This document shows positions 14,099 through 29,498 of a DNA stretch of 50,556 bases, piece after piece. The translations under genes and the position numbers were made by a program. Source of the DNA: Marinobacterium profundum (GTDB lineage: Bacteria; Pseudomonadota; Gammaproteobacteria; Pseudomonadales; Balneatricaceae); NCBI RefSeq assembly GCF_001528745.1, contig NZ_BCNS01000085.1, forward strand, positions 1 through 50,556, written 5' to 3'. The notes under the pieces are model-generated. The model was not told the origin of the DNA and searched no databases. It saw only the letters and a program-made list of their open reading frames with translations. Numbering within the stretch: the stretch's first letter is position 1; each line of letters opens with the position of its first letter.

Positions 14099-15493
14099 TT
14101 AAACCGTTTCGTTCACCGCTGCCGTCAGCTCCATGATGGCTTTCTTGCCATCGCCAAACAGCATCAGGCAGTTATCCCTGGCAAACAGCGGGTTAGGCAG
14201 GCCTGCAAAGCCCGGACTCAGGCTGCGCTTGACCACCACCACGGTGCGCGCCTTGTCGACGTTCAGGATCGGCATGCCGTAGATTGGGCTACCCTTGTCC
14301 TCCCGTGCCATGGGATTGGTAACGTCATTGGCACCGATCACTATGGCCACATCCGTCTGTTCGAACAGCGCATTAACCTCCTCCATTGGCTGCATCTTGT
14401 CGTAGGGCACCTCGGCTTCGGCCAGCAGTACATTCATGTGACCGGGCATGCGCCCCGCCACCGGATGCAAACCGTAGATCACCTCGACGCCACGACGCTC
14501 AAGCGAGTCGGCAAGGTCGCGCACCGCGTGCTGCGCCTGGGCCATGGCCAGGCCAAAGCCCGGCACTATGACCACCCGGCGGGCGCTCTCTAACAGCATG
14601 CTCACTTCCTCCGGCGAAGACGACTTAACCTTGCCGGCATAGACTTCATCGGCATCCATCACAGGTCCGCCGGCCTCCCCCATGGAGCCAAACAGCACAC
14701 CACTGAGCGAACGGTTCATGGCCACGCACATGATGCGGGTCAGGATGATACCTGAAGCCCCCACCAGAGCACCGGACACCACCAGCACGCTGTTGCCCAT
14801 AATGAAACCGGCTGCCGCCGCCGCCAGCCCCGAATAAGAGTTCAGCAACGCAATAACGACCGGCATATCGGCACCGCCAATGGGTATCACCAGGGTCACC
14901 CCCAGCACCAGCGCCAGTATCGTCAACAGGATCAGCGTGTTGCTGTCACCGCTGCCGCTGACCAGTGAGCCCGCCAGCGCCAGTACGGCGGCAAAAAGCG
15001 CCAGATTAAAGCCACGGATGCCCCGGAATCCCAGTGGCCGGCCCGGCAGCAGTTCCTGCAACTTGGCAAAGGCCACTGCACTGCCGGTCAGGGTCACGGC
15101 ACCGATAAGCAGCGTTACGCAGATGGCCACCAGCGTTACCAGCCCCTGGGGGCTATCGGCTCCCGTCAGGCCCAGAAAACTCGCCGCCGCCACGCAGAGG
15201 GAGGCACCGCCGCCAAAGCCATTGAGCAGCGCCACCATCTGCGGCATCGCCGTCATCTGGATACGGGTCGCCAACACTGTGCCGATAAGCGAGCCCAGTA
15301 CCACGCCGCCCAGTATCCACTCATAGGACAGGATCGACTTGTCCAGCAGGGTGACGACCACCGCCACCAGCATGCCGATGGCGGCCATCTGGTTGCCGCG
15401 CACGGCGGTACGCGGCCGGGTCAGCCCCTTGATGCCGCCGACGAACAGCATGGCCGCCAGTAGATAGAAACCATCAACCAGGAACAGATTCAT
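14099..15493 (-). CDS. pntB: NAD(P) transhydrogenase subunit beta
   Basis: This is the proton channel and NADP(H)-binding part of the transhydrogenase, which uses the proton gradient to make NADPH from NADH. The 464 residues hold about eight or nine membrane segments, then the NADP domain with VVIVPGFGLAMAQAQHAV, HPVAGRMPGHMNVLLAEA, the IVIGANDVTNP loop and the KRSLSPGFAGLPNPLF tail. Its ATG at 15493 overlaps the end of pntAb by 20 bases, a sign of translational coupling. It is the last gene of the three-gene unit. Its product NADPH would feed the NADPH:F420 reductase encoded nearby. Confidence 0.96.
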   Translation of the reverse strand: MNLFLVDGFYLLAAMLFVGGIKGLTRPRTAVRGNQMAAIGMLVAVVVTLLDKSILSYEWILGGVVLGSLIGTVLATRIQMTAMPQMVALLNGFGGGASLCVAAASFLGLTGADSPQGLVTLVAICVTLLIGAVTLTGSAVAFAKLQELLPGRPLGFRGIRGFNLALFAAVLALAGSLVSGSGDSNTLILLTILALVLGVTLVIPIGGADMPVVIALLNSYSGLAAAAAGFIMGNSVLVVSGALVGASGIILTRIMCVAMNRSLSGVLFGSMGEAGGPVMDADEVYAGKVKSSSPEEVSMLLESARRVVIVPGFGLAMAQAQHAVRDLADSLERRGVEVIYGLHPVAGRMPGHMNVLLAEAEVPYDKMQPMEEVNALFEQTDVAIVIGANDVTNPMAREDKGSPIYGMPILNVDKARTVVVVKRSLSPGFAGLPNPLFARDNCLMLFGDGKKAIMELTAAVNETV

Positions 15494-15815
15494 GACTCAC
15501 ACCTCCCTTGGCTGCGGTGAGAGTGGCGGCTTTGCGCGGCTGGAACATGCGCAGCATACGGTTAGTCACAAGGAACCCGCCCACGACGTTAATCGTCGCC
15601 AGGGTCACGGCGATAACCCCAAGCACAGGGACCCAAAGACCGTTGCCATCGCCTGAGCCCGCTGCCAGCAGCGCACCCACCAGGGTGATACCGGAAATGG
15701 CATTGCTGCCGGACATCAAGGGCGTGTGCAAGGTCGCCGGCACTTTGGTGATGAGCTCGACGCCCAGAAACACCGCCAGCACGAAGAGTGAAATTTGCAG
15801 TATCAGGATTTCCAT
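15474..15815 (-). CDS. pntAb: NAD(P) transhydrogenase membrane subunit alpha-2
   Basis: This 113-residue protein is the membrane part of the alpha subunit, separate here as in Rhodospirillum rubrum rather than fused as in Escherichia coli. It has three or four hydrophobic segments (LQISLFVLAVFLGVELI, then AISGITLVGALLAAG, WVPVLGVIAVTLATINVVGG) and the conserved VPATLHTPLMSGSNAISG. The ATG overlaps the TGA of pntAa in TGATG. Confidence 0.95.
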   Translation of the reverse strand: MEILILQISLFVLAVFLGVELITKVPATLHTPLMSGSNAISGITLVGALLAAGSGDGNGLWVPVLGVIAVTLATINVVGGFLVTNRMLRMFQPRKAATLTAAKGGVSHESVPG

Positions 15816-16978
15816 CAGGCCACCTCCTCCAGCACCCGTACACTCAGGCCCAGGCGCTCACGAATGCGCCCGGCACAGATCTCGCCCCGGTGAGTCACCA
15901 GGGTGTCGGCAACGATTTCATCGTCAAAATCCAGCTGCAGGCGCGCATCCTTGTCCAGCAGGTGCAGCAACAAATTTTCGATATTGCGGCCGTGCATCTG
16001 GCTGGCATGCATGGGCACGCTGGCCGCCAGGTTCAGCGGTCCCATCAGGGTGACACCATGCACTTGCTGTGTTTCACCGGCCCGGGTCAGCTCGCAATTG
16101 CCACCGCGCTCCGCCGCCAGATCCACGATCACGGCGCCTGGTTTCATGGCCGCCACCATTTCTGCACTGATCAGCACAGGTGCACGGCTGCCAGGAATTG
16201 CGGCCGTGGTAATGACGATGTCCTGCTGTGCCAGTACGGCGGTCATCTGCTCGCGCTGGCGCGCCAGGAAGTCTGCCCCCTGTTCGGCGGCATAACCGCC
16301 CTGGCCTTCGGCCGCCTCGGTGGGCAGATCCAGCTCTATGGGCCGCGCACCGACGGAAATAATCTGCTCCCGTGCCGCCGGGCGTACATCATAGGCTTCC
16401 ACCACGGCGCCCAGGCGCTTGGCGGTGGCGGCGGCCTGCAGGCCGGCAACACCGGCGCCCATAATAAAGACGCGGGCCGGATTCAGGGTGCCGGCAGCGG
16501 TCATCATCATCGGGAAGATGCGCGGGGCCGCTCCGGCTGCCATCAATACGGCCTTGTAGCCCGCGATGGTGGCGATGGACGACAGTACATCCATGCTCTG
16601 GGCGCGACTAATGCGCGGCACCAGCTCCAGCGCCAGCAACGACAGTCCGCGCTCGGCCAGGGCTTCGAAACGCGCCGTATCGCTCAGCGGATCCATCAGC
16701 GCAATACACAGCTGATCGGCACTGAGGCCATCGAGATCCTCGTTGCGACTGGCATTCACGCACAGCAGTACTTCACTGCCGGCGATCGCCTCGCCCCGTG
16801 ACGCCACTATAACCGCACCTGCATCCTCATAAAGGACATCGGCAAAGCCGGCCAATATGCCAGCGCCAGACTCAACCCTAAGCTCACAGCCGCGGACACA
16901 GAGCGCCGCAACATTGGCCGGCGTCAGCGCAACGCGCCGCTCACCGGGGTACAGATCCTTGAGTACAGATAATTTCAT
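15815..16978 (-). CDS. pntAa: NAD(P) transhydrogenase subunit alpha, NAD-binding part
   Basis: This 387-residue soluble subunit binds NAD(H) and passes hydride to the NADP site of PntB. It resembles alanine dehydrogenase: KDLYPGERRVALTPANVAAL at the start, then a Rossmann motif in VFIMGAGVAGLQAAATAKRL followed by AYDVRP, and GAVIVDLAAERGGNCELT. The ATG at 16976-16978 is chosen because AGGAG lies nine bases upstream; an upstream Met at 17014 lacks one. It is the first gene of pntAa-pntAb-pntB. Confidence 0.95.
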   Translation of the reverse strand: MKLSVLKDLYPGERRVALTPANVAALCVRGCELRVESGAGILAGFADVLYEDAGAVIVASRGEAIAGSEVLLCVNASRNEDLDGLSADQLCIALMDPLSDTARFEALAERGLSLLALELVPRISRAQSMDVLSSIATIAGYKAVLMAAGAAPRIFPMMMTAAGTLNPARVFIMGAGVAGLQAAATAKRLGAVVEAYDVRPAAREQIISVGARPIELDLPTEAAEGQGGYAAEQGADFLARQREQMTAVLAQQDIVITTAAIPGSRAPVLISAEMVAAMKPGAVIVDLAAERGGNCELTRAGETQQVHGVTLMGPLNLAASVPMHASQMHGRNIENLLLHLLDKDARLQLDFDDEIVADTLVTHRGEICAGRIRERLGLSVRVLEEVA

Positions 16979-17435
16979 TATTTTTTTCTCCTGTACGATG
17001 TAATAAATAAACAATCAAACAGCGAACGCCATTTAATTTATTTACAGAGTTCTAAATTAGTTAATAATTAGACTATAGATTGAGTAAAATCGCGCAGCCA
17101 TATATCCAACACTTATTATTATGGGCGCGCTGCGAGTTACCCACCCTACATTTACGACTATTTAATTTACATCTAACAGCATTAACTCAGCGAAACCTAC
17201 CAGGCTCCCAATACAATCAGAATATTGCTGAAACTTTTTATTATAAAATCAAACCGAGATCTTATTTTGAGAAGGAACTTTTCCGTTTTTCTCTTCTAAC
17301 TTCTAGCTTTCACCTCGCACCTCGCACCTCGCACCTCGCACCTCGCACCTCGCACCTTTAACCTCGCACCTTTAACCTAGCCCCTTTCACCTCGCCCCTC
17401 GTTCCTCGTCCCTTTAACCTGTATTCAAAATAGAA
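16979..17435. other. 457-base intergenic region with AT-rich leader and heptamer repeat
   Basis: The half next to pntAa (16990-17280) is AT-rich and presumably holds the pnt promoter; I see no consensus pair that I would defend. The half next to the hydrolase gene is filled by the 7-bp tandem repeat. Confidence 0.55.
17311..17420. repeat. 7-bp tandem repeat, unit CACCTCG
   Basis: Six perfect copies of CACCTCG start at 17311. Degenerate copies follow (CCTTTAA, CCCCTCG, TTCCTCG) to about 17420. The reverse complement of this unit, CGAGGTG, is repeated at 25888-25948 and 38407 onward. Confidence 0.9.
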
Positions 17436-17459
17436 AACCCGACACCTTCATGCCGGGTT
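17436..17459 (-). terminator. terminator of the F420/hydrolase gene cluster
   Basis: Read on the minus strand, AACCCGGCA and TGTCGGGTT pair (one mismatch) around a short loop, followed by TTCTATTTT. It lies 15 bases past the stop of the M20 hydrolase, the last gene of the long minus-strand cluster. Confidence 0.65.
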
Positions 17460-17474
17460 ATGACAGGAAAGGAA

Positions 17475-18707
17475 TCAGTCGTTGGCGCGCTCCAGTACCG
17501 CCTGCAGCAGTACGTTGCAGCCGGCGGCCAGATCTTCCGCCTTGGCATTTTCCGCCTCGTTATGGCTGATACCGTTTTCGCAGGGCACGAAAACCATCGA
17601 GGTCGGCGCCACACGGGAGATATAGCAGGCATCGTGGCCGGCACCGCTGACGATATCGCGGTGGCTGTAGCCGAACTCTTCGGCGGCCTGACGCACAGAG
17701 TTTACACAGGCGGTATCGAAGGGCACCGGCGGCGAGTACCAGATCTGCTCAAACTTCATTTCAAGTCCCAGCTCGCCGGACACCCGATCCGCGATTTCGC
17801 GCAGCTCCTGATCCATCTTGGCCAGTACCTTGGCATCCGGGTGACGGAAGTCCACGGTAAAAAATACCTGGCCCGGAATCACGTTGCGCGAGTTCGGGAA
17901 CACCTGCACCAGGCCGACGGTGGCGCAGGCATTGGGCTGGTGATCCATACCGATGCGGTTCACCGTATCGATCAGGCGTGCAGCCCCCACCAGGGCGTCA
18001 CGGCGCCTTGTCATTGGGGTGGGACCAGCGTGGGATTCCTGCCCGGTAAGGGTGATTTCATACCAGCGCTGCCCCTGGGCATCGGTCACTACGCCGATCT
18101 GTTTGTCTTCATCCTCCAGAATCGGACCCTGTTCAATATGGGCCTCGAAGAAGGCCTTGAAAGGACGACCACCCACTTCATCGGGGCCAGAATAACCAAT
18201 GCGCTCCAGTTCCTCACCCATGGTCTTGCCATCCAGATCCGCCCGGCTAAGGCCATACTCCAGATCGAAGACACCGGCGAAAACGCCCGATGCCACCATG
18301 GCCGGCGGGAAGCGCGAACCTTCCTCGTTGGTCCAGACAGAGGCCTCGATGGGCGCGCGGGTTTCGATACCCTGATCATTCAGGCTGCGGATCACTTCCA
18401 ACCCCGACAGTACACCGTAGATACCATCGAACTTGCCGCCCGTGGGCTGGGTATCCAGGTGGCTGCCCATAACTACCGGCGGCAGGGAGTCGTCCTGGCC
18501 TGGCCTGCGGGCGAAGATATTGCCCATTTTGTCGATACGGATACTGCAGCCGGCGTCCTTGCACCAGCTGACAAAAAGGTCTCGCCCCTGCTTGTCCAGA
18601 TCCGTCAGCGCCAGACGGCAGACGCCGCCTTTTTCGGTGCCGCCGATCTCGCCCATCTGCATCAGGCTGTCCCAGAGGCGCTGCTGATTAACGGTAATCT
18701 TCTGCAT
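17475..18707 (-). CDS. M20-family N-carbamoyl-amino-acid hydrolase / beta-ureidopropionase-type amidase
   Basis: This 410-residue enzyme belongs to the dinuclear-metal amidases that split N-carbamoyl amino acids (ureidopropionase, hydantoin-utilisation HyuC/AmaB, allantoate amidohydrolase) into amino acid, CO2 and ammonia. Metal ligands are visible: H83 and D85 in GSHLDTQPTGG, D94, E128-E129 in TNEEGSRF, H190 in EAHIEQGP, and a late GAGHDACY. The dimerisation motif FFTVDFRHPD is present. It is the last gene of the cluster, 176 bases after the F420-type oxidoreductase gene. That context favours a role after reduction and opening of a pyrimidine or hydantoin ring. A dihydropyrimidinase for ring opening is not in the window. 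Exact substrate is unproven. Confidence 0.88.
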   Translation of the reverse strand: MQKITVNQQRLWDSLMQMGEIGGTEKGGVCRLALTDLDKQGRDLFVSWCKDAGCSIRIDKMGNIFARRPGQDDSLPPVVMGSHLDTQPTGGKFDGIYGVLSGLEVIRSLNDQGIETRAPIEASVWTNEEGSRFPPAMVASGVFAGVFDLEYGLSRADLDGKTMGEELERIGYSGPDEVGGRPFKAFFEAHIEQGPILEDEDKQIGVVTDAQGQRWYEITLTGQESHAGPTPMTRRRDALVGAARLIDTVNRIGMDHQPNACATVGLVQVFPNSRNVIPGQVFFTVDFRHPDAKVLAKMDQELREIADRVSGELGLEMKFEQIWYSPPVPFDTACVNSVRQAAEEFGYSHRDIVSGAGHDACYISRVAPTSMVFVPCENGISHNEAENAKAEDLAAGCNVLLQAVLERAND

Positions 18708-18883
18708 GATTAGACTCTCTCACTCAGCTCTGTCAATTCCGAACGTTCCACACCCGCAAGGCTCAGCGAATGCAGCGAAAATGGGGACAGCGTACTGCCC
18801 CTTTAGCGATATAAAAGATCGTGTTTGTTACAAACCAAACGATTTATTAACAAGGATTTTCTGCGACCTTTTATCAGCCAGTT

Positions 18884-19894
18884 TTAACCCTTGAAATGCG
18901 GGATAATATGTTCGCCGTACTGGGCAATAATATTTTCCTCGTCTCCATTGTCCAGGTAGATATTGAACTGAGTCGTACCGGCTTCCTTCAAATGGTTTAG
19001 CTTGGCGATATGCTGCTCGGCCTCACCCAGCACGCAGAAACTTTCAACGATTTCCGGCGTGATGAAATCCAGGTATGGGTTATCACTCTGGCCATGCTTG
19101 GAGTAGTCGTAGCCTTTGCGTTTCTCGATATAGTCGGTCAGGCTCTTGGGCACCAGGCCACTGTCGGTACCGTACTTCTCAACGATATCGGCCACATGGT
19201 TACCCACCATGGCCGGGAACCACTTGGTGGACTCAACACAGCTGGCCCTGTCGCCAAAATAAGCCGGCGCTGCAGCTATAACCTTGAAGTTCGACATATC
19301 ACGCCCTGCCTCGACACCGGCGGCGATGGCCTGATCCGCCAGCCACTTGATCAGCGCGGGTTCGCCGATCTGCAGAATCACGCCATCACCCACCTCCCCT
19401 GCGGTTTTCAGCGCCATGGGGCCGTAGGCACCTATATAGACCGGCAGCTCGTAGCCTTCAGCCCAGGGAAACTGCACCGGCTCCGGGCATTCGCCGTACA
19501 TCACTTCCTCACCACGTACCATGGCTTTCACCTTGGTGGTGAACTCGGCCACGCGGGCCAGAGTCGCGGGCTTCTTGCCCATCACGCGCACCGAGCTATC
19601 GCCGCGCCCCAGGCCTACTTCAAAGCGGCCACCGCTCTGCTTGGCCAGGCTGCCGAACAGGCTGGCCGCCAGCGACCAGTCACGGGCATTGGGATTGGTT
19701 ACGCAGGGGGCGAACTTGATGCGCGAGGTATGCTCCATGCACATGGCGATAGCCGGGTAGCATTCACGCCACAGGATATGGGAGTCGTAGAACCAGCAGT
19801 AGTCAAAGCCGGCGTCCTCGGCCTGTTTCACCAGTGTGCGGGCACGGTCGTGGCTGACAAAACCTTTAAAGCAGATACCAAATTCCATAGTCAC
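18884..19894 (-). CDS. F420-type luciferase-like (LLM) oxidoreductase, CPS_4043-like
   Basis: This 336-residue TIM-barrel protein belongs to the bacterial luciferase superfamily and resembles methylene-tetrahydromethanopterin reductase (Mer), which uses F420. Visible family marks are MEFGICFKGFVSHDRARTLV at the start, DYCWFYDSHIL, GGRFEVGLGRGDSSV (the Mer-like phosphate/F420 loop), LPVYIGAYGPMALKTAGEVG and a C-terminal LKEAGTTQFNIYLDNG. I recall it as close to a family typified by Colwellia CPS_4043. It lies 34 bases after npdG, within the same run as all F420 biosynthesis genes, which makes F420 its probable cofactor. With the ureidopropionase-type hydrolase as its downstream neighbour, reduction (or oxidation) of a pyrimidine-like ring is a reasonable hypothesis. 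Confidence 0.88.
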   Translation of the reverse strand: MTMEFGICFKGFVSHDRARTLVKQAEDAGFDYCWFYDSHILWRECYPAIAMCMEHTSRIKFAPCVTNPNARDWSLAASLFGSLAKQSGGRFEVGLGRGDSSVRVMGKKPATLARVAEFTTKVKAMVRGEEVMYGECPEPVQFPWAEGYELPVYIGAYGPMALKTAGEVGDGVILQIGEPALIKWLADQAIAAGVEAGRDMSNFKVIAAAPAYFGDRASCVESTKWFPAMVGNHVADIVEKYGTDSGLVPKSLTDYIEKRKGYDYSKHGQSDNPYLDFITPEIVESFCVLGEAEQHIAKLNHLKEAGTTQFNIYLDNGDEENIIAQYGEHIIPHFKG

Positions 19895-19928
19895 TCTCCT
19901 GAGTCTTTGTTTTTATCGAGGATGAAAA

Positions 19929-20600
19929 TTAATGCGCATCCGGGGGGCAGATGCGAATACCGGCGTGGGTAAAAGGCACTTTCTTGGAGATATTCAAACG
20001 GATAAGAATGGGTGTGATGGCCTCGATGCAACGGGCACTCTCGGCCGGGCCGCAGTTGTAGGCGGCCACATCCAGCTTGCGAATCAGCTCGATCACCTTT
20101 TCCTTGGCCGCCAGATCATTACCGCACACCAGCACATCGCAATTGATGCTGTGGTCCAGATCGTTCAGTACCGTGGCCGATACGTTATGCAGCGCGCCCA
20201 CCACCGGGATGCTCTCGCCCAGCAGCGCCTGGGCCGCTTCAGTGGCGGAACCCGCCGCCGGCATGGCCACGCGCTTGGGATCGCCCTGGGCCAGAGGCAC
20301 GGCGATATCGATCAGTACCTTGCCCACCAGCAGATCCTTGATGGACTCAAGCGTGGCATCATGGGCGCTGTAAGGCACCGCCAGAATCACCAGTTCATCG
20401 GCCTGCGCCACCGCTGCGCGAATATCATGACCGCTGATCGCAGCTGCCGCAGGGTTCAGCAGAGCGCCAAGCTCCGTGGCCGCATCTGCCGCACGGGCCG
20501 CCTCACGCGAGCCAATTGCGACCTCTATACCCGCACGGGCAAAGCGCAGTGCCAGACCCCGGCCCTGAGGACCCGTACCACCCAGAATTGAGATTTTCAT
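19929..20600 (-). CDS. npdG: NADPH-dependent F420 reductase
   Basis: This 223-residue enzyme passes hydride between NADP(H) and F420 and would supply F420H2. It starts with a single-fold dinucleotide motif [20 protein letters not shown] and NADP-preferring SRE at residues 32-34 (IGSREAARA). It continues with [25 protein letters not shown] and the C-terminal F420-binding region [21 protein letters not shown]. The ATG at 20600 has AAGAGGAAG upstream. It lies between cofE and the luciferase-like gene, as expected for a dedicated F420 redox unit. Confidence 0.93.
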
Positions 20601-20688
20601 CGATACCCTTCCTCTTGTTCTTTTTGTTCACATTGATGTCGGTTGAGTTTTTTCGTTTCAAACTGCAATCATTGCGACCCCGTGGGGT

Positions 20689-21567
20689 TTAGCGAAACAG
20701 GTCTTCCTGCTGCGGGCGCACCAGGTCACGCGCCGAGCTGTTGTCCGGTGTCCAGTCTATGCCGCGGAACAGAATCGCCGGGGTCTTGCCATCCTTGCTC
20801 ATCAAGAGACCCGAGGCCGCCGCGAGCTCATCGGCAAGCGCCGGTACCGTGACCGAAAGCTCGCGCCCGAAGGCATCACGCTCACCCACCAGATCGATCT
20901 GGCTCGGCACCTTGGCAAGGCCCACCGCCACATTCACCAGCCCCATGCGCCAGGGCCGGCCGAAGGTATCGGTAATCACCACGCCCAGACGCACACCACT
21001 GGCACGTTCCAGCAGCGCGCAGATTTCCCGGGCGCTGCGATCCGGATCTTCCGGCAGCAGGATGACGGTTTCCTCGGCGCCGACATTGGATTCATCCACC
21101 GCGGCATTGGCGCAGATAAAGCCCAGCCGGTGCTCGGCGATCAGGGTGCCTTCGAGCTGGCCGGGGCGCTTGATGGCCCGCACCACACGGCTGGATTCCC
21201 CCAGAATTACTTCGACCTTGCGCGGATCCTTGTTCAGCTCCAGGCCAAGCTGACGTGCCTTCTCCCCCGGTACCACATCGGCCAGGCGCGTGATCCGGCC
21301 TTCGGCCTTGGAGACCACCTTGTGGGCGATCACCAGGATGTCGCCGTCCTGCAGACTGAGCGCCGCCCGTTCGATGGATTCGAGCAGCAGCGCGGCCAGA
21401 TCATCCCCCGGCGCTATGTCCGGAATACCCGGCAGCACCTGCATGGCAATGCTCGTACTGGCCGCAGGGCGGACCGCTCTGGCGGCACGGTGCACCACAG
21501 CGGGATCAGTCGGGGCGCTGCTGAATGCCATGCCTTGTGCTGCGTTGTTCTGTATTAAAGATTCCAT
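20689..21567 (-). CDS. cofE: coenzyme F420-0:L-glutamate ligase
   Basis: CofE adds one or more gamma-linked glutamates to F420-0 with GTP. The protein has 292 residues. The family core begins near residue 42 with MQVLPGIPDIAPGDDLAALL and shows LQDGDILVIAHKVVSKAEGR, VRAIKRPGQLEGTLIAEHR, NAAVDESNVGAEETVILLPEDPD and the VVITDTFGRPWRMGLVNVAVG signature. About 40 residues at the N terminus are not part of the usual fold. The gene could start later, but no better ribosome-binding site is seen. There is no fused nitroreductase domain as in mycobacterial FbiB, so dehydro-F420 reduction must occur elsewhere if it is needed. It overlaps the end of cofC by 13 bases. Confidence 0.93.
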   Translation of the reverse strand: MESLIQNNAAQGMAFSSAPTDPAVVHRAARAVRPAASTSIAMQVLPGIPDIAPGDDLAALLLESIERAALSLQDGDILVIAHKVVSKAEGRITRLADVVPGEKARQLGLELNKDPRKVEVILGESSRVVRAIKRPGQLEGTLIAEHRLGFICANAAVDESNVGAEETVILLPEDPDRSAREICALLERASGVRLGVVITDTFGRPWRMGLVNVAVGLAKVPSQIDLVGERDAFGRELSVTVPALADELAAASGLLMSKDGKTPAILFRGIDWTPDNSSARDLVRPQQEDLFR

Positions 21568-22196
21568 AGGGTCACCAGTTCCCGCGGCAGATCGCCGCTG
21601 TGTTGATGCATCAGGCTGTGAAGGTCATCCGGGGTATCAAGATCGAAGCGCATATGATCAAAGTGCAGCAGCTCACAGGGCACCGAACGTTTGAGCGCGG
21701 CCCTCTGGTGCGCGTCGCTGGAATTCGGGCCAAAGCAAAAGGGCACCACATCCGGCGGTGTGGTCAGCAGCGCATTAGTGCCGGCGTCGCTGGCCGGGCA
21801 GATCAGCACCGAGGGTGCAGGTCTTGGCTGGCACAGCAGAGTGCGAAACTCGTCGGCATCGAGGCGTGCTATATCCGCCGGTACCAGCAGCTGAGAATCA
21901 AAGCCATGTTTTTTACTCCAGTGCGCCGCCAGTGCCGCCGCCCCCGACAGTCCCGCCGGGCGCAGCTCGCGCAGCACAGCAGCACCATAGCCGCGGGCCA
22001 GGTCGCCGATGGCGGCAGAAGCCGTGACCACCAGCAGTGGATAATCCGGAAAATGCGTGCAAAAAAAGCTCAGGGTGCGTTCGCACAGGCGCCGGGCCAA
22101 CTGGCTGCGGTCTGTATCGCCGAGCACCGGACGCAGGCGCGACTTGGCACTGGCGAAATCCTTCACCGGGATCACGATCAGGGTTTTCAGACTCAT
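21555..22196 (-). CDS. cofC: 2-phospho-L-lactate (or PEP/3-phosphoglycerate) guanylyltransferase
   Basis: CofC activates the three-carbon acid side chain of F420 with GTP. The 213-residue nucleotidyltransferase starts TLIVIPVKDFASAKSRLRPVLG, the nucleotide-binding loop. It has LLVPADIARLDADEF where DxD-type metal binding is expected, and ends in FDLDTPDDL, the family C-terminal motif. The 2-phospholactate, phosphoenolpyruvate and 3-phosphoglycerate forms cannot be told apart by eye. It overlaps cofD by four bases (ATGA). Confidence 0.92.
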   Translation of the reverse strand: MSLKTLIVIPVKDFASAKSRLRPVLGDTDRSQLARRLCERTLSFFCTHFPDYPLLVVTASAAIGDLARGYGAAVLRELRPAGLSGAAALAAHWSKKHGFDSQLLVPADIARLDADEFRTLLCQPRPAPSVLICPASDAGTNALLTTPPDVVPFCFGPNSSDAHQRAALKRSVPCELLHFDHMRFDLDTPDDLHSLMHQHSGDLPRELVTLWNL

Positions 22197-23188
22197 GCCG
22201 ACACCCGCTCAGACTGATCCGGTTGCGACGCCAGCCCAGCTCCAGCCAATCCAGCCACGGCCAGCACTTCACGGGCCAGGCATGCCTTGTCGGCATCGCT
22301 GCTCATCAATGTCTGGGTCACCAGCGTCTTGAGCCCGCGCGCCTGCAGGGCCGCCACATCAGCGCTGTCACTGACATCAATGACCAGGCTATCGATCAGC
22401 CCCCGGTAACAGTCGGCCACGCCCAGGTTGCTGCAGCTGTAACCCGCCGCCTTGAGCATGCGGTTCGCAGGCCCCTTCACCGTCTGGCCGCCGATCAGTG
22501 GCGATACCGCGATCTTGGGGCACCTGGCCGCTTCAAAGGCACTGCGGATACCCGGCAGCGCCAGAATCGGGCCTATGCTCACCAGCGGATTGCTGGGCGC
22601 AAGAATTAGCAGGTCGGCATCACGGATGGCCGCCAGCGCCTCTTCAGTCGGGCGCGCCTCCTCCAGCCCCTGAATTCGCAGCTCCAGTACCTCGGGGCGG
22701 CACTGTTCACGCACAAAGTATTCCTGGAACGACAGCCAGCCACGGGCGGTTTTGACCTCGGTCTGCATGCGGTCGTCACTGGGCAGCAGTATATTGGCCG
22801 TTACCCCCAGCGCCCGGGCGATGGTCTGGGCGATGGCGCTCGGACGCACACCCTGGCGGCGCAGTTCGGTGCGATAGATATGGGTGGCGAAATCCTGGTC
22901 CCCCAGGTACATCCAGTCATCGGACCCCAGGCGTGCCAGGCCTTCCAGGGTACGGCTGGTTTCATTCGCCAGTCCCCAGCCCTTGTTGCGATCGATCAGC
23001 CCGGCCAGGCTGTAGGTGATGGTATCTATATCCGGCGAGACCCAGAGGCCATGGAATTCCTGATCATCCGCCACGTTGCCGATGATCGAGAGCTGGCCGG
23101 GCTGCAGTATCGCGGCAAGCCCCATGGCCAGTTTGGCACCACCGCCACCGCCGGCCAGCAGGGTGATTTTCGGCGCCTGGGCACTCAT
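22193..23188 (-). CDS. cofD: F420 phospholactyl(enolpyruvyl)-transferase
   Basis: CofD joins the guanylylated three-carbon acid to the deazaflavin Fo to form (dehydro-)F420-0. The 331 residues contain the opening loop ITLLAGGGGGAKLAMGL, the LSIIGNVADDQEFHGLWVSPDIDTI Fo-site region (the text is continuous in the protein), YLGDQDFATHIYRTELRRQG, and LLILAPSNPLVSIGPILA for GDP/phosphate contact. Its ATG overlaps the end of cofH in ATGA. It is one of three tightly coupled genes cofH-cofD-cofC. Confidence 0.95.
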   Translation of the reverse strand: MSAQAPKITLLAGGGGGAKLAMGLAAILQPGQLSIIGNVADDQEFHGLWVSPDIDTITYSLAGLIDRNKGWGLANETSRTLEGLARLGSDDWMYLGDQDFATHIYRTELRRQGVRPSAIAQTIARALGVTANILLPSDDRMQTEVKTARGWLSFQEYFVREQCRPEVLELRIQGLEEARPTEEALAAIRDADLLILAPSNPLVSIGPILALPGIRSAFEAARCPKIAVSPLIGGQTVKGPANRMLKAAGYSCSNLGVADCYRGLIDSLVIDVSDSADVAALQARGLKTLVTQTLMSSDADKACLAREVLAVAGLAGAGLASQPDQSERVSA

Positions 23189-24426
23189 GCCATGCCTCCG
23201 GCCAGCAGCGACTGGGGCAGTGCTTCGAACGCAGCATCAGATGCAGCTGCACGGTCGAAAACTTGCAGCGGGCGATAGAGAGTATTGCGGCGCACCGGTT
23301 CACGTCCCATGGCACGCATCATGCCGATCAGCTCTTCTGGCTGCATTTCCTGGCCATGCTCGCCACCGGCGGCACGGGAGATGCTTTCGTTCATCAGGGT
23401 GCCACCCAGGTCATTGACTCCTGCGGCCAGCATCTGCTGCGCAAGGTCGGTGCCGAGCTTGACCCAGGAGGCCTGGATATTATCGATCCAGCCATTAAGC
23501 ATCAGTCGTGCCACGGCGTGCATGCGGATATGCTCGTGTCGCGTAGGGCCGGGGCGCACGCCCGCCACTTCCAGATAGAGCGGCGTCTTGTAGTGGATAA
23601 AGCCCAGTGGCACGAACTCGGTAAAACCGCCGGTCTTCTGCTGGATGGTACGCAACAGCGCCAGATGTGCCGCCCAGTGCTCGGGGCCGTCTATATGGCC
23701 GTACATGATGGTGGCGGTGGTCGGCAGACCCAGGCGATGGGCGGTCTGGATAATCTCGACCCACTGTTCGGTGGTGAGTTTGTCCTTCGTCAGCCGCTTA
23801 CGGATATCCGTATCCAGGATCTCGGCGGCGGTACCCGGCATCGAGCCCAAACCGTGATCCATCAGATCCTGAATAAAATCGGCGTAGGACATCTTGCTCT
23901 TGCGGGCACCAAACCAGATTTCAAACGGCGAGAACGCATGAATATGCATGCCCGGCAGCACACTCTTGATGGCCTTGAGCATGTCGCGGTAGAAATGCAC
24001 CGGCAGATCCGGGTGCAACCCGCCCTGGATACACACCTCGGTGGCGCCCCTGTCCCAGGCTTCCTGCGCGCGGCGAACGATTTCATCCAGATCGAAGAAC
24101 TCGGCCTCGGGGTCATCCTTGCGCTTGGCAAAGTTGCAGAACTTGCAGCCCATGTAGCAAACATTGGTGTAATTGATATTGCGGGTGACCACGAAGGTGG
24201 CGCGATCGCCAACACGCTGCTGCCGCACGGCATCGGCGGTGGCGGTGAGCGCATCCAGCTCGGCGCCTTCGGTGCCAAAGAGCACCACGCCTTGCGCTTC
24301 GCTCAACTCCTCACCGTCCAGGGCCCGCTGCAAAATGGCACGAACTTCTGTGCTCACAGCCGGGTTGAAAAGCTCCTGCGGCACCCTCGGTGCCAGCGCG
24401 ATCTTGTGGGGGACAGCGGCATTCAT
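23185..24426 (-). CDS. cofH: radical SAM Fo synthase subunit 2
   Basis: CofH couples tyrosine to 5-amino-6-ribitylamino-uracil in the first half of deazaflavin Fo synthesis. The 413-residue radical SAM enzyme has its 4Fe-4S motif in NVCYMGCKFCNF, preceded by FVVTRNINYTN, and the family marks VCIQGGLHPDLPVHFYRDML and HAFSPFEIWFGARKS. The ATG at 24424-24426 has AGGAG seven bases upstream; a Met at 24450 lies inside the end of cofG. It is encoded separately from CofG, as in archaea, cyanobacteria and proteobacteria, not fused as in actinobacterial FbiC. Confidence 0.95.
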   Translation of the reverse strand: MNAAVPHKIALAPRVPQELFNPAVSTEVRAILQRALDGEELSEAQGVVLFGTEGAELDALTATADAVRQQRVGDRATFVVTRNINYTNVCYMGCKFCNFAKRKDDPEAEFFDLDEIVRRAQEAWDRGATEVCIQGGLHPDLPVHFYRDMLKAIKSVLPGMHIHAFSPFEIWFGARKSKMSYADFIQDLMDHGLGSMPGTAAEILDTDIRKRLTKDKLTTEQWVEIIQTAHRLGLPTTATIMYGHIDGPEHWAAHLALLRTIQQKTGGFTEFVPLGFIHYKTPLYLEVAGVRPGPTRHEHIRMHAVARLMLNGWIDNIQASWVKLGTDLAQQMLAAGVNDLGGTLMNESISRAAGGEHGQEMQPEELIGMMRAMGREPVRRNTLYRPLQVFDRAAASDAAFEALPQSLLAGGMA

Positions 24427-24440
24427 GGCTTTTCTCCTGT

Positions 24441-25571
24441 TCAATGACATTGCGCCAGCGCCAGACCATCGCCACGGGCGATGCCAGCCAGGCGGGCGGC
24501 GATGGGGCCGGCGAAAAAGCGATCCGGGTATTGCTGATAGTGCGGGTACACCGCCAGACGCTCCTGCAGGCCGTAACCGCAGTCAGCGGTCGAGCTGCGC
24601 AGGGATTCAATCTGCGGCCAGGCACGTTCCGGGTTGATGTGATCAAGCGTGAGCGGTGAAATGCCGCCCCAGTCATTGATGCCCGCGGCTATATAGGCGC
24701 CAAAGCGCTGCTGCAGATTAGGCGGCGCCTGTATGCTGATGCTCGGATCCAGCAGCAGACGGGCCAGCACCAGGGTGCGCACCATATCGTTCAGATCCGG
24801 TTCCGGGTGATTCGCCATGGCGGTACCGGGCTTGGCACGGAAGTTCTGTACTATAACTTCCTGAATATGGCCGTAGCGGCGGTGCAGATTATTGATGGTG
24901 ATAAGGCTGTCGACCCGCTCGGACCAGGTCTCGCCTATACCGATCAGAATGCCGGTGGTGAAAGGCACACCCTGCTCGCCGGCCCTCTCCAAAGTACGGA
25001 TACGCTGTACCGGCACCTTGTCGGGACAGGCATAGTGGGCCTCGCCACGCTGAATCAGCCGGCGGCTGACGTTCTCGAGCATCATGCCCATGCTGGCGCT
25101 GACGGGCTTGAGCTTGTGGATATCCTCATCCGACAGGGTGCCGGCATTCACATGGGGCAGCAGGCTGGATTCTGCCAGCACGCGTTCACACATCTGCGCC
25201 AGGTAATCCACCATGCTGCTGTGTCCCAGCTGCGCCAGCGCTTCCCGGGCCTGTGGATAACGCAACTCGGGCTTCTCGCCGAGGCTAAAGAGCACTTCCT
25301 TGCAGCCCAGACGCTCACCTTCATGCACCACGGCCATGACTTCATCGGGCGTCATTACACGGGCATTGGGGGAACCGGGTTTCTGCACAAAGGTGCAGTA
25401 GCCGCAGTCGTCGCGGCACATATTGGTCAGCGGTACGAAGACCTTGCGTGAATAAGTCAGAGTGCGGCCCCAGTGCATATCACGCACGGCGGCGGCCTGC
25501 AGACCTAGTGTCTTGAATTCTGCGCCGCTCGCCTGTTCCAGCGCCAGCGCCTGTGTGCGGGTCAGCATCAT
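24441..25571 (-). CDS. cofG: radical SAM Fo synthase subunit 1
   Basis: CofG performs the second radical SAM step that closes the deazaflavin ring of Fo. The 376-residue protein has the cluster motif in NMCRDDCGYCTF, followed by VLFSLGEKPELRYPQAR, HVNAGTLSDEDI, SMGMMLENVSRRL and a C-terminal INDWGGISPLTLDHINPE typical of CofG. The first in-frame codon is a GTG at 25577; the ATG at 25571, eight bases after GGAGG, is the better start. It is the first gene of the F420 run. A 163-base inverted-repeat element lies 36 bases before it, so the promoter is either in or beyond that element. Confidence 0.95.
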   Translation of the reverse strand: MMLTRTQALALEQASGAEFKTLGLQAAAVRDMHWGRTLTYSRKVFVPLTNMCRDDCGYCTFVQKPGSPNARVMTPDEVMAVVHEGERLGCKEVLFSLGEKPELRYPQAREALAQLGHSSMVDYLAQMCERVLAESSLLPHVNAGTLSDEDIHKLKPVSASMGMMLENVSRRLIQRGEAHYACPDKVPVQRIRTLERAGEQGVPFTTGILIGIGETWSERVDSLITINNLHRRYGHIQEVIVQNFRAKPGTAMANHPEPDLNDMVRTLVLARLLLDPSISIQAPPNLQQRFGAYIAAGINDWGGISPLTLDHINPERAWPQIESLRSSTADCGYGLQERLAVYPHYQQYPDRFFAGPIAARLAGIARGDGLALAQCH

Positions 25572-25606
25572 GATCACAGCCTCCGTTATTGTTTTTGGTG
25601 GGGCCT

Positions 25607-25769: not shown

Positions 25770-25887
25770 TAACATTGTTCTGGTGAAAGGTCGCCGTGCC
25801 TGCACAACAACTTTTTACCAAACGGTAAATTTAACTTACATCAAATTTTGCCAACTGGTCAAATATTTTTTTACAGGTGGCGCAAAT

Positions 25888-25948
25888 GCGAGGTGCGAGG
25901 TGCGAGGTGCGAGGTGCGAGGTGCGAGGTGCGAGGTGCGAGGTGCGAG
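25888..25948. repeat. 7-bp tandem repeat, unit GCGAGGT
   Basis: Eight perfect copies of GCGAGGT and a partial ninth run from 25888 to 25948. It is the reverse complement of the 17311-17420 unit. Confidence 0.93.
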
Positions 25949-28756: not shown

Positions 28757-29416
28757 TCAAGATTTCAACCCTATTCCCTTCAATATAATATGGGTCAAAA
28801 AATCCCCCGCCCGCGTAAAATCATCCGCCTCCAGACTCTCTTTGCCCAGCGACAACTCAATCTGCGCCGAAAAATCCGCATAGGTCTGGGTGGATGCCCA
28901 GATGGTAAAAAACAGATGTTCAGGCTCGATGGGATCAACAATCCCATCGGCAATCCAGCCCCGTACCAGCGCAAGATCTGCTTCGAGCTGGGGCAACAGC
29001 CGCTCACGCAGATACTCCTTCAGATGCGGCGCGCCATTGATGATCTCGTTGGCAAACACCTTGGAGCCGTTAGGATGGGTGCGGGAGATTTCGAACTTGC
29101 CCCTAATATAGTTTTCCAGCATGGCGGCGGGGTCTTCACCGGCCTGCGCCAGCAGCGTCATTTTCTCGAGCCACATGTCGAGAATCGTCTTCAGTACCTG
29201 ATGGTAGAGAATTTCCTTGGATGAAAAATAATAAAGCATGTTCTGCTTTGACATGCCGGCCCGCTCGGCGATGGCTTCAACCGAAGCGCCGTTATAGCCA
29301 AACTGTGCAAACACGTCTTCCGCCGCCACCAGTATGCGGGTTTCATGGCCCTCCCTGATGCGCGAGCGCCGCTTGGGTTTAATTTCTTCGACCACTGAGG
29401 TGCTGTTCCCTGTCAT
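28757..29416 (-). CDS. TetR-family regulator, RutR-like
   Basis: The 219-residue repressor has a TetR helix-turn-helix in residues 24-65 (ETRILVAAEDVFAQFGYNGA, then AIAERAGMSKQNMLYYFSSKE) and a C-terminal domain strongly resembling RutR of Escherichia coli: LDMWLEKM near the middle, FANEIINGAPHLKEYL, and the LFFTIWASTQTYADFSAQIE stretch. RutR binds uracil and controls pyrimidine breakdown. The gene lies 3.2 kb upstream of cofG in the same direction and is not co-transcribed with it. Its presence near an F420 unit with a ureidopropionase-type hydrolase supports a pyrimidine link, but the ligand is unproven. Confidence 0.85.
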   Translation of the reverse strand: MTGNSTSVVEEIKPKRRSRIREGHETRILVAAEDVFAQFGYNGASVEAIAERAGMSKQNMLYYFSSKEILYHQVLKTILDMWLEKMTLLAQAGEDPAAMLENYIRGKFEISRTHPNGSKVFANEIINGAPHLKEYLRERLLPQLEADLALVRGWIADGIVDPIEPEHLFFTIWASTQTYADFSAQIELSLGKESLEADDFTRAGDFLTHIILKGIGLKS

Positions 29417-29498
29417 TCACTCTGTTCCACTGCTGTTACTCAAAAGACTGGGGGAATTTTACCACATGGTCCAGGCAGGCGCTGAAGCGCCTGCGCCA

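Follow-up and report, generated by a model that had tools for sequence, protein, structure and literature searches.

An F420 gene unit of Marinobacterium profundum with a candidate F420H2-dependent uracil/thymine reductase

A gene unit for F420 and two further enzymes

We analysed a 50,556 nucleotide long stretch of DNA from Marinobacterium profundum (in the following the window; contig C85 of genome G000, a 5.64 Mb assembly of 226 contigs with a completeness of 100 and a contamination of 1.22). It carries an eight-gene unit in which biosynthesis genes of the cofactor F420 are followed by genes for a luciferase-like oxidoreductase (LLM) and an M20 amidohydrolase. The subject of this work is the role that the unit, and in particular the LLM, may have in pyrimidine degradation. 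An earlier reading of the window (the original prediction) had described eight genes running in one direction with overlaps or short gaps, leaving the strand unnamed. A profile search of the window proteins confirmed this: the genes lie on the minus strand in the order cofG-cofH-cofD-cofC-cofE-npdG-LLM-M20 from position 25577 to 17475, all eight reading frames are open and all eight proteins exceed curated NCBIfam cut-offs:

24441-25577, minus strand, cofG, FO synthase subunit (TIGR03550, 472 bits, cut-off 213)
23185-24450, minus strand, cofH, FO synthase subunit (TIGR03551, 514 bits, cut-off 374)
22193-23188, minus strand, cofD, F420 transferase (TIGR01819, 294 bits, cut-off 257)
21555-22196, minus strand, cofC, guanylyltransferase (TIGR03552, 135 bits, cut-off 105)
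20689-21567, minus strand, cofE, F420 gamma-glutamyl ligase (TIGR01916, 257 bits, cut-off 181)
19929-20600, minus strand, npdG/fno, NADPH:F420 reductase (TIGR01915, 198 bits, cut-off 150)
18884-19894, minus strand, LLM (TIGR03842, 499.6 bits, cut-off 295.45, model positions 1-329)
17475-18707, minus strand, M20 amidohydrolase (TIGR01879, 442 bits, cut-off 204; NF006769, 696 bits, cut-off 452)
17436-17459, minus strand, terminator-like hairpin closing the unit (10-pair stem with T-rich tail; a consensus match only)

The F420 biosynthesis set (CofG, CofH, CofD, CofC and CofE) is complete over cut-off within the window. Successive overlaps of 4-13 bp connect the genes from cofG through cofE, followed by gaps of 88 bp (cofE-npdG), 34 bp (npdG-LLM) and 176 bp (LLM-M20). 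The upstream boundary had been placed at 25571, which is an in-frame ATG of cofG; this codon is internal, the frame opening with GTG at 25577. At the downstream end the predicted terminator was found as the hairpin listed above. Such hairpins are no commoner in the scanned region than in shuffled sequences (15 versus 13.9 ± 3.6), and the LLM-M20 gap itself contains a weaker one (18801-18784). For both reasons, co-transcription of the M20 gene with the upstream genes is rated as no more than likely.

Pyrimidine genes around the oxidoreductase and the missing reductase

To characterize the genomic neighbourhood we took the best 80 of 399 loci with LLM relatives in named genomes, with up to 10 kb per side. 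Gene presence was scored for each locus by tblastn with representative proteins and by clustering of reading frames, with one representative of each cluster identified in a profile search. The 80 loci are close relatives (LLM 74-99% identical), and since many of them are Marinomonas the counts are not independent. By tblastn, the F420 genes accompany the LLM in most loci (cofG in 67, cofH and cofD in 74 each, cofC, cofE and npdG in 75 each), as do the M20 gene (66) and a RutR-like regulator (68). An NCS1 permease was found in 46 loci, dihydropyrimidinase in 25 (34 by clustering, including fragments at locus edges), an AptA-type aminotransferase in 16 and a methylmalonate-semialdehyde dehydrogenase (MMSDH) in 12. 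Less frequent were a nitrilase-type amidase (6/80), cytosine deaminase and cytosine permease (5/80 each); LysR regulators (16/80), YdcZ-type exporters (9/80) and TonB receptors (6/80) were also seen. PydA, the reductase of the known Pyd pathway, was found by tblastn in 0/80 loci. The check proposed with the original prediction, i.e. a search for pyrimidine genes beside the unit in related genomes, was thus positive, with dihydropyrimidinase, NCS1 permease and aminotransferase all recovered. Among these loci the closest named genome is that of Marinobacterium sedimentorum (L024, LLM 99% identical), in which about 9 kb separate dihydropyrimidinase and LLM.

Individual loci show the reductase exchanged or the LLM uncoupled from F420 genes. 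In a PydA-bearing genome of the same family (L106) PydA, a GltD-like partner, a RutR-like regulator, an M20 gene (61% identical to that of the window) and dihydropyrimidinase stand together. From its position we take the GltD-like partner to be PydX, a name that the profile search did not return. This gene set matches the LLM set with another reductase. In genome G240 (L107) one strand carries an NCS1 permease, the LLM, a TonB receptor, thymidine phosphorylase, cytidine deaminase, uracil phosphoribosyltransferase, a nitrilase-type amidase, dihydropyrimidinase, an AptA-type aminotransferase (54% identical) and MMSDH, and CofH is encoded on another contig. Two further loci (L109 in G279, which is also the genome of L083, and L110 in G133) hold NCS1, LLM, MMSDH and M20 together. 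In Streptomyces sp. BHT-5-2 (L118) the gene of a TIGR03842 protein with 42% identity comes immediately after that of dihydropyrimidinase, and a nitrilase-type amidase and an aminotransferase are encoded upstream; F420 genes were not found in this 19 kb stretch. The link between LLM and pyrimidine genes hence persists in some genomes where F420 genes lie elsewhere, and in another phylum. The original prediction had left open whether the ring is a pyrimidine or a hydantoin: owing to the cytosine deaminase and permease genes and to the thymidine phosphorylase, cytidine deaminase and uracil phosphoribosyltransferase of L107, a pyrimidine is favoured over a hydantoin.

In other loci the surroundings differ. 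Genome G105 carries a divergent TIGR03842 LLM (42% identical) and MMSDH inside an rnf operon (L108, 9059-11652), in the order RnfC, RnfD, FMN-binding subunit, LLM, MMSDH, RnfE and endonuclease III. The whole cofGHDCE-npdG-LLM unit is found on large plasmids of Rhodobacterales, flanked by transhydrogenase genes and a TetR gene in Leisingera (L120) and adjoined by ATP-binding cassette transporter and formate dehydrogenase genes in Paracoccus (L119). Five loci (L062, L067, L069, L071 and L078) have an extra gene between LLM and M20, which in L069 (11116-11724, the sole copy scanned) is GTP cyclohydrolase II. This enzyme catalyses the first step towards the CofH substrate, and its position is in keeping with F420 being made on demand.

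We then asked which enzymes of pyrimidine reduction the genomes encode as a whole. The original prediction correctly noted that the window lacks a dihydropyrimidinase; the genome has two over cut-off, one of them beside an NCS1 permease on contig C84 (C84:37380-38738, 616 bits versus a cut-off of 393). The second (C80:66438-67802, L092), which stands beside a BhcA-like aminotransferase, was not placed in this pathway and probably serves a different one. PydA is missing from the genome (best match 40 bits versus a cut-off of 335). The survey was extended to 50 LLM genomes drawn from the 80 loci, 30 being left out. CofH exceeds the cut-off in all 50 and dihydropyrimidinase in 48; RutA does so in 0/51 genomes, i.e. 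these 50 and that of the window.

A second sample comprised 293 genomes of the window's order, including its own. It partly shares genomes with the first, such that the two sets of counts cannot be summed. LLM was over cut-off in 15 genomes, PydA in 19, dihydropyrimidinase in 31 and CofH in 78. CofH is present in every one of the 15 LLM genomes, dihydropyrimidinase in 14 of them and PydA in none. Among the 31 genomes with dihydropyrimidinase, 14 have LLM, 12 have PydA, none has both and 5 have neither. Fisher tests, in which relatedness was not corrected for, gave P = 4e-5 for the exclusion of LLM and PydA, 8e-10 for LLM with CofH and 1e-14 for LLM with dihydropyrimidinase. Of the 14 genomes with both LLM and dihydropyrimidinase, 10 have the two at a distance of 1.1-10.0 kb; in G103 they are about 98 kb apart, and in G000, G133 and G279 they are on different contigs. 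The statement that F420 is uncommon in gammaproteobacteria needs softening in view of CofH in 78/293 genomes. Of the 78 CofH matches, 62 lie in frames longer than 800 amino acids, by their length CofG-CofH fusions, and 63 of the 78 genomes have no TIGR03842 protein over cut-off.

A RutR-like regulator and operator-like palindromes

The original prediction did not include a RutR-like gene, palindromes upstream of cofG and the transhydrogenase genes at 14099-17014. Palindromes were scored by their mismatches to TTGACCANNTGGTCAA, which we take to be the E. coli RutR-type box consensus:

28757-29416, minus strand, RutR-like TetR regulator, proposed uracil sensor (PF08362; E. coli RutR structures matched at E 2e-46)
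29458-29473, RutR-type palindrome before the RutR-like gene, candidate operator (2 mismatches)
25847-25862, RutR-type palindrome 1 upstream of cofG, candidate operator (2 mismatches)
25814-25829, RutR-type palindrome 2 upstream of cofG, candidate operator (3 mismatches; 33 bp from palindrome 1)

For RutR, PMC10891134 gives uracil as the ligand, the residues that contact it and a box that is a palindrome of approximately 16 bp. The regulator of the window keeps all five uracil contacts (W77, Y97, W167, Q171 and Q179). Across 73 regulators W77 is found in 71 and each of the other four in 73.

Box matches with at most 3 mismatches number 9 in the whole window versus 1.77 expected, and 9 were reached in 0/100 shuffles. 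For the relatives we searched promoter regions that begin 350 bp before the first operon gene and extend 30 bp into it (cofG in 67, cofH in 8 and LLM in 3 cases), keeping 78 of 81 sources and dropping 3 with less than 200 bp upstream of the first gene. At most 3 mismatches were seen in 66/78 regions (shuffled mean 1.40) and at most 2 in 43/78 (0.05). Boxes with at most 3 mismatches also precede M20 (34/68; shuffled 0.83), the RutR-like gene (31/70; 1.10) and TonB receptor genes (3/6; 0.08), and were absent before cytosine deaminase (0/5). Inner genes of the unit were slightly above the shuffles (LLM 6/82 versus 1.32, a few of these being first genes; cofD 3/75 versus 0.85; cofE 4/76 versus 1.30). 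A motif search that used no consensus returned TTTACC-N4-GGTAAA in 36/78 regions; palindromes with a gap of the N4 type occurred in 51 regions (11 in shuffles), and a spacing of 32-34 bp was found for 31 of 49 box pairs. Taken together, the palindromes suggest one regulon under a uracil-type regulator.

Downstream of the unit the window encodes a putative proton-translocating transhydrogenase:

15815-17014, minus strand, pntAA, transhydrogenase alpha (NF006942, 369 bits, just under the cut-off of 383)
15474-15815, minus strand, pntAB (PF12769, 116 bits)
14099-15493, minus strand, pntB (NF006974, 445 bits, under the cut-off of 689; no other family matched)

Among the 80 loci tblastn found pntAA near the LLM in 17 and pntB in 16. 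Between the M20 terminator and pntAA a short tandem repeat of GAGGTGC type is present (17330-17420), and similar letters occur on the other strand near 25900, upstream of cofG.

The candidate reductase, its pathway and the alternatives

TIGR03842 (F420_CPS_4043) is a family without assigned function, named in NCBIfam only "LLM class F420-dependent oxidoreductase". For the LLM an AlphaFold model with a pLDDT of 86.8 and a pTM of 0.89 was obtained. Its best eight structural matches are Mer proteins (26-28% identity, TM score about 0.8); next come F420-dependent alcohol dehydrogenase, hydroxymycolic acid dehydrogenase and glucose-6-phosphate dehydrogenases. The LLM is nevertheless not over the Mer cut-off (129.5 versus 348.7 bits). 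Four further LLM paralogues in the genome belong to other families or are weakly placed, and none is RutA. Near the NCS1-dihydropyrimidinase locus on C84 there is also a luciferase-like gene with a PcaD-like hydrolase (C84:43308-44267), which is not RutA either.

According to PMC11094777, Glu6 is the catalytic acid of Mer, and a model places Asp96 in contact with the pyrimidine part of the pterin. We aligned Mer with 85 LLM rows, mostly close relatives (an earlier alignment had 84 rows). The LLM rows and the added regulon rows repeat some genomes (L109 is on the same contig as L083, L113 on the same contig as L026). The equivalent of Asp96 (D99) and the Val of the Mer cis-peptide (V65) are kept in 85/85 rows, and Glu6 is replaced by Thr (56 rows), Cys (28) or Val (1). 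At 48 positions, among them R97, Y157, Q175, W225, N232, H233 and H267, the LLM rows are constant in all or all but one row and differ from both Mer chains. A Mer-like F420H2 site, in which the Mer acid is gone but the pyrimidine contact is kept, would fit a small pyrimidine substrate. Reading the Cys at the Glu6 position as the counterpart of the catalytic Cys that PydA has was dropped, most rows having Thr and Streptomyces having Val. Gln178 of jMer, as given in PMC11094777, is Asn at 178 in the jMer chain used, and no argument was built on it.

The M20 protein matches an N-carbamoyl-beta-alanine amidohydrolase (PDB 8c46, E 9e-149), three less specifically named entries scoring higher. Its subfamily NF006769 carries the NCBIfam name "allantoate amidohydrolase" and is also present in a PydA cluster of a family relative. 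Because of this cluster and of the 8c46 match, a role in hydantoin or allantoin breakdown was set aside and a putative beta-ureidopropionase is preferred. The name allantoate amidohydrolase is probably wrong for NF006769 members in Pyd clusters.

The original prediction had proposed that F420H2 drives the ring reduction. This is supported in silico by the neighbourhoods, the pathway hole, the palindromes and the link to pyrimidine genes without nearby F420 genes. We consider it highly likely that the LLM is an F420H2-dependent uracil/thymine reductase which replaces PydA, with F420 made on demand. The sequences themselves show which genes are present, how they cluster, where the pathway has a hole, the operator-like palindromes and the uracil contacts that are kept; the activity and substrate of the LLM, the direction of electron flow, the binding of the regulator to the palindromes and induction by uracil are inferred, as follows: The NCS1 permease encoded on C84 would import uracil or thymine. 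Uracil (or thymine) would bind the RutR-like repressor, such that it leaves the paired palindromes before cofG and F420 synthesis and LLM are induced together. PntAB and NpdG would supply F420H2 from NADH via NADPH, and the LLM would pass a hydride from F420H2 to the ring, yielding dihydrouracil or dihydrothymine. The dihydropyrimidinase of C84 would open the reduced ring and the M20 enzyme strip the carbamoyl group to give beta-alanine or beta-aminoisobutyrate. An AptA-type aminotransferase and a CoA-acylating semialdehyde dehydrogenase, whose genes are found in the loci of relatives, would end the route.

A number of observations weigh against this assignment. The dihydropyrimidinase of C84 is on a different contig from the LLM unit, two of the 50 LLM genomes (L040, L062) have none over cut-off, and neither has G105 despite its LLM and MMSDH. 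Pyrimidine neighbours are few or zero at L088, with none in the visible stretch of L040 and L088, and no Pyd gene is among the listed features near the Paracoccus unit (L119). PydA exceeds the cut-off in 4 of the 50 LLM genomes (a Colwellia metagenome-assembled genome, Ruegeria, Limimaricola and Shimia); a further match, in L078, stays below it (219 bits). Thus three of the four LLM genomes titled alphaproteobacterial carry PydA too, the fourth being Cohaesibacter; we take these four genera to be alphaproteobacteria. Given this coexistence, a one-for-one swap does not hold everywhere, and in these genomes the LLM may act on another substrate. Some gene absences among the 50 genomes may be assembly gaps. 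In the protein itself the alignment with Mer points to no proton donor, the catalytic Glu of Mer being replaced. On the side of regulation, the RutR-like protein is under the curated RutR cut-offs (199.8 versus 368 and 181.1 versus 230) and the boxes were scored against an assumed consensus. Boxes are also few before NCS1 (6/48; shuffled 0.60), dihydropyrimidinase (4/23; 0.45) and AptA (2/16; 0.20) genes and absent before pntAA (0/18).

Part of these data would fit an LLM that serves pyrimidine catabolism on another ring (for instance on thymine alone, on a modified pyrimidine or on a hydantoin), with uracil handled otherwise. Coexistence with PydA in 4/50 genomes, the sparse neighbourhoods of L088 and Paracoccus and a Mer alignment that pinpoints no catalytic residue all fit this alternative. 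PydA is, however, absent over cut-off in 46/50 and RutA in all 51 genomes, yet dihydropyrimidinase is present in 48/50, and the RutR-like regulator keeps its uracil contacts. We therefore regard another ring as unlikely.

Alternatively, the LLM could be a monooxygenase that attacks pyrimidines in the manner of RutA, depending on FMN and oxygen. The two belong to the same luciferase-like superfamily, and a RutR-like regulator is encoded near the LLM. The nearest solved relatives and folds of the LLM are the F420-dependent Mer proteins, CofH accompanies it in 15/15 and 50/50 genomes of the two overlapping sets, and npdG is near it in 75/80 loci. A RutA-type product would moreover need no dihydropyrimidinase, which is nevertheless present in 48/50. 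Such a monooxygenase is very improbable. That pyrimidine genes lie next to the F420 operon by chance, its reductase having an unrelated task, as F420-LLM units without pyrimidine genes in the visible stretch (Paracoccus, L040, L088) might suggest, is hardly credible given an association that recurs in many arrangements, shared palindromic boxes and an LLM that stays with pyrimidine genes where the F420 genes are elsewhere.

A uracil/thymine reductase of this kind would stand close to known systems and differ from each. With the Pyd pathway (PydA or PreA-PreT) the genome of the window shares dihydropyrimidinase, a ureidopropionase-type M20 enzyme and an NCS1 permease, and the loci of relatives share the aminotransferase and semialdehyde dehydrogenase; it differs by the lack of PydA, whose reduction step would fall to an unrelated F420 enzyme of the TIM-barrel type, and by F420 synthesis forming part of the operon. 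Mer provides the nearest structures and shares Asp96 and the cis-peptide Val, but the LLM is far under its cut-off (130 versus 349 bits), has lost Glu6 and has 48 distinct positions. The five uracil contacts and the RutR-type palindrome recall the Rut system, in contrast to the missing RutA (0/51) and the sub-cut-off scores of the regulator. The ferredoxin-dependent PydAc of Clostridium, described in PMC7332683, is likewise a Pyd variant with an altered electron donor, but the reductase of the window is not homologous to it. An F420-dependent uracil or pyrimidine reductase was not found among the literature matches listed. The nearest is a Chloroflexota F420-dependent yanthine reductase, called "putative" in PMC12507026: also an F420 enzyme of the luciferase family, which its gene context led the authors to propose as reducing a nucleobase-type ring, it belongs to the uric acid pathway and to another phylum. 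The Pyd pathway itself is known, and the novelty would be a first enzyme of a new type.

With somewhat less confidence we think it likely that an F420H2:uracil (thymine) reductase constitutes a new enzyme class within a uracil-controlled regulon, and that marine gammaproteobacteria build F420 on demand mainly for pyrimidine degradation. A 2021 review of F420 (PMC8498797) states that, Actinobacteria apart, no F420H2-dependent reductase of bacteria that make F420 had been investigated experimentally, and it calls for experimental work on the roles. For the marine group the unit gives a specific and easily tested answer to this question. If the proposal is true, F420 would have a concrete physiological task in Proteobacteria, and the pyrimidine ring would be open to a third kind of attack, by an enzyme not homologous to PydA or RutA. 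The proposal would further give a function to a family whose annotation says no more than F420-dependent oxidoreductase, and explain how bacteria that bear dihydropyrimidinase without PydA could degrade uracil. Finally, it would add an F420-driven pyrimidine reduction that needs no flavin/iron-sulfur enzyme of the PydA type.

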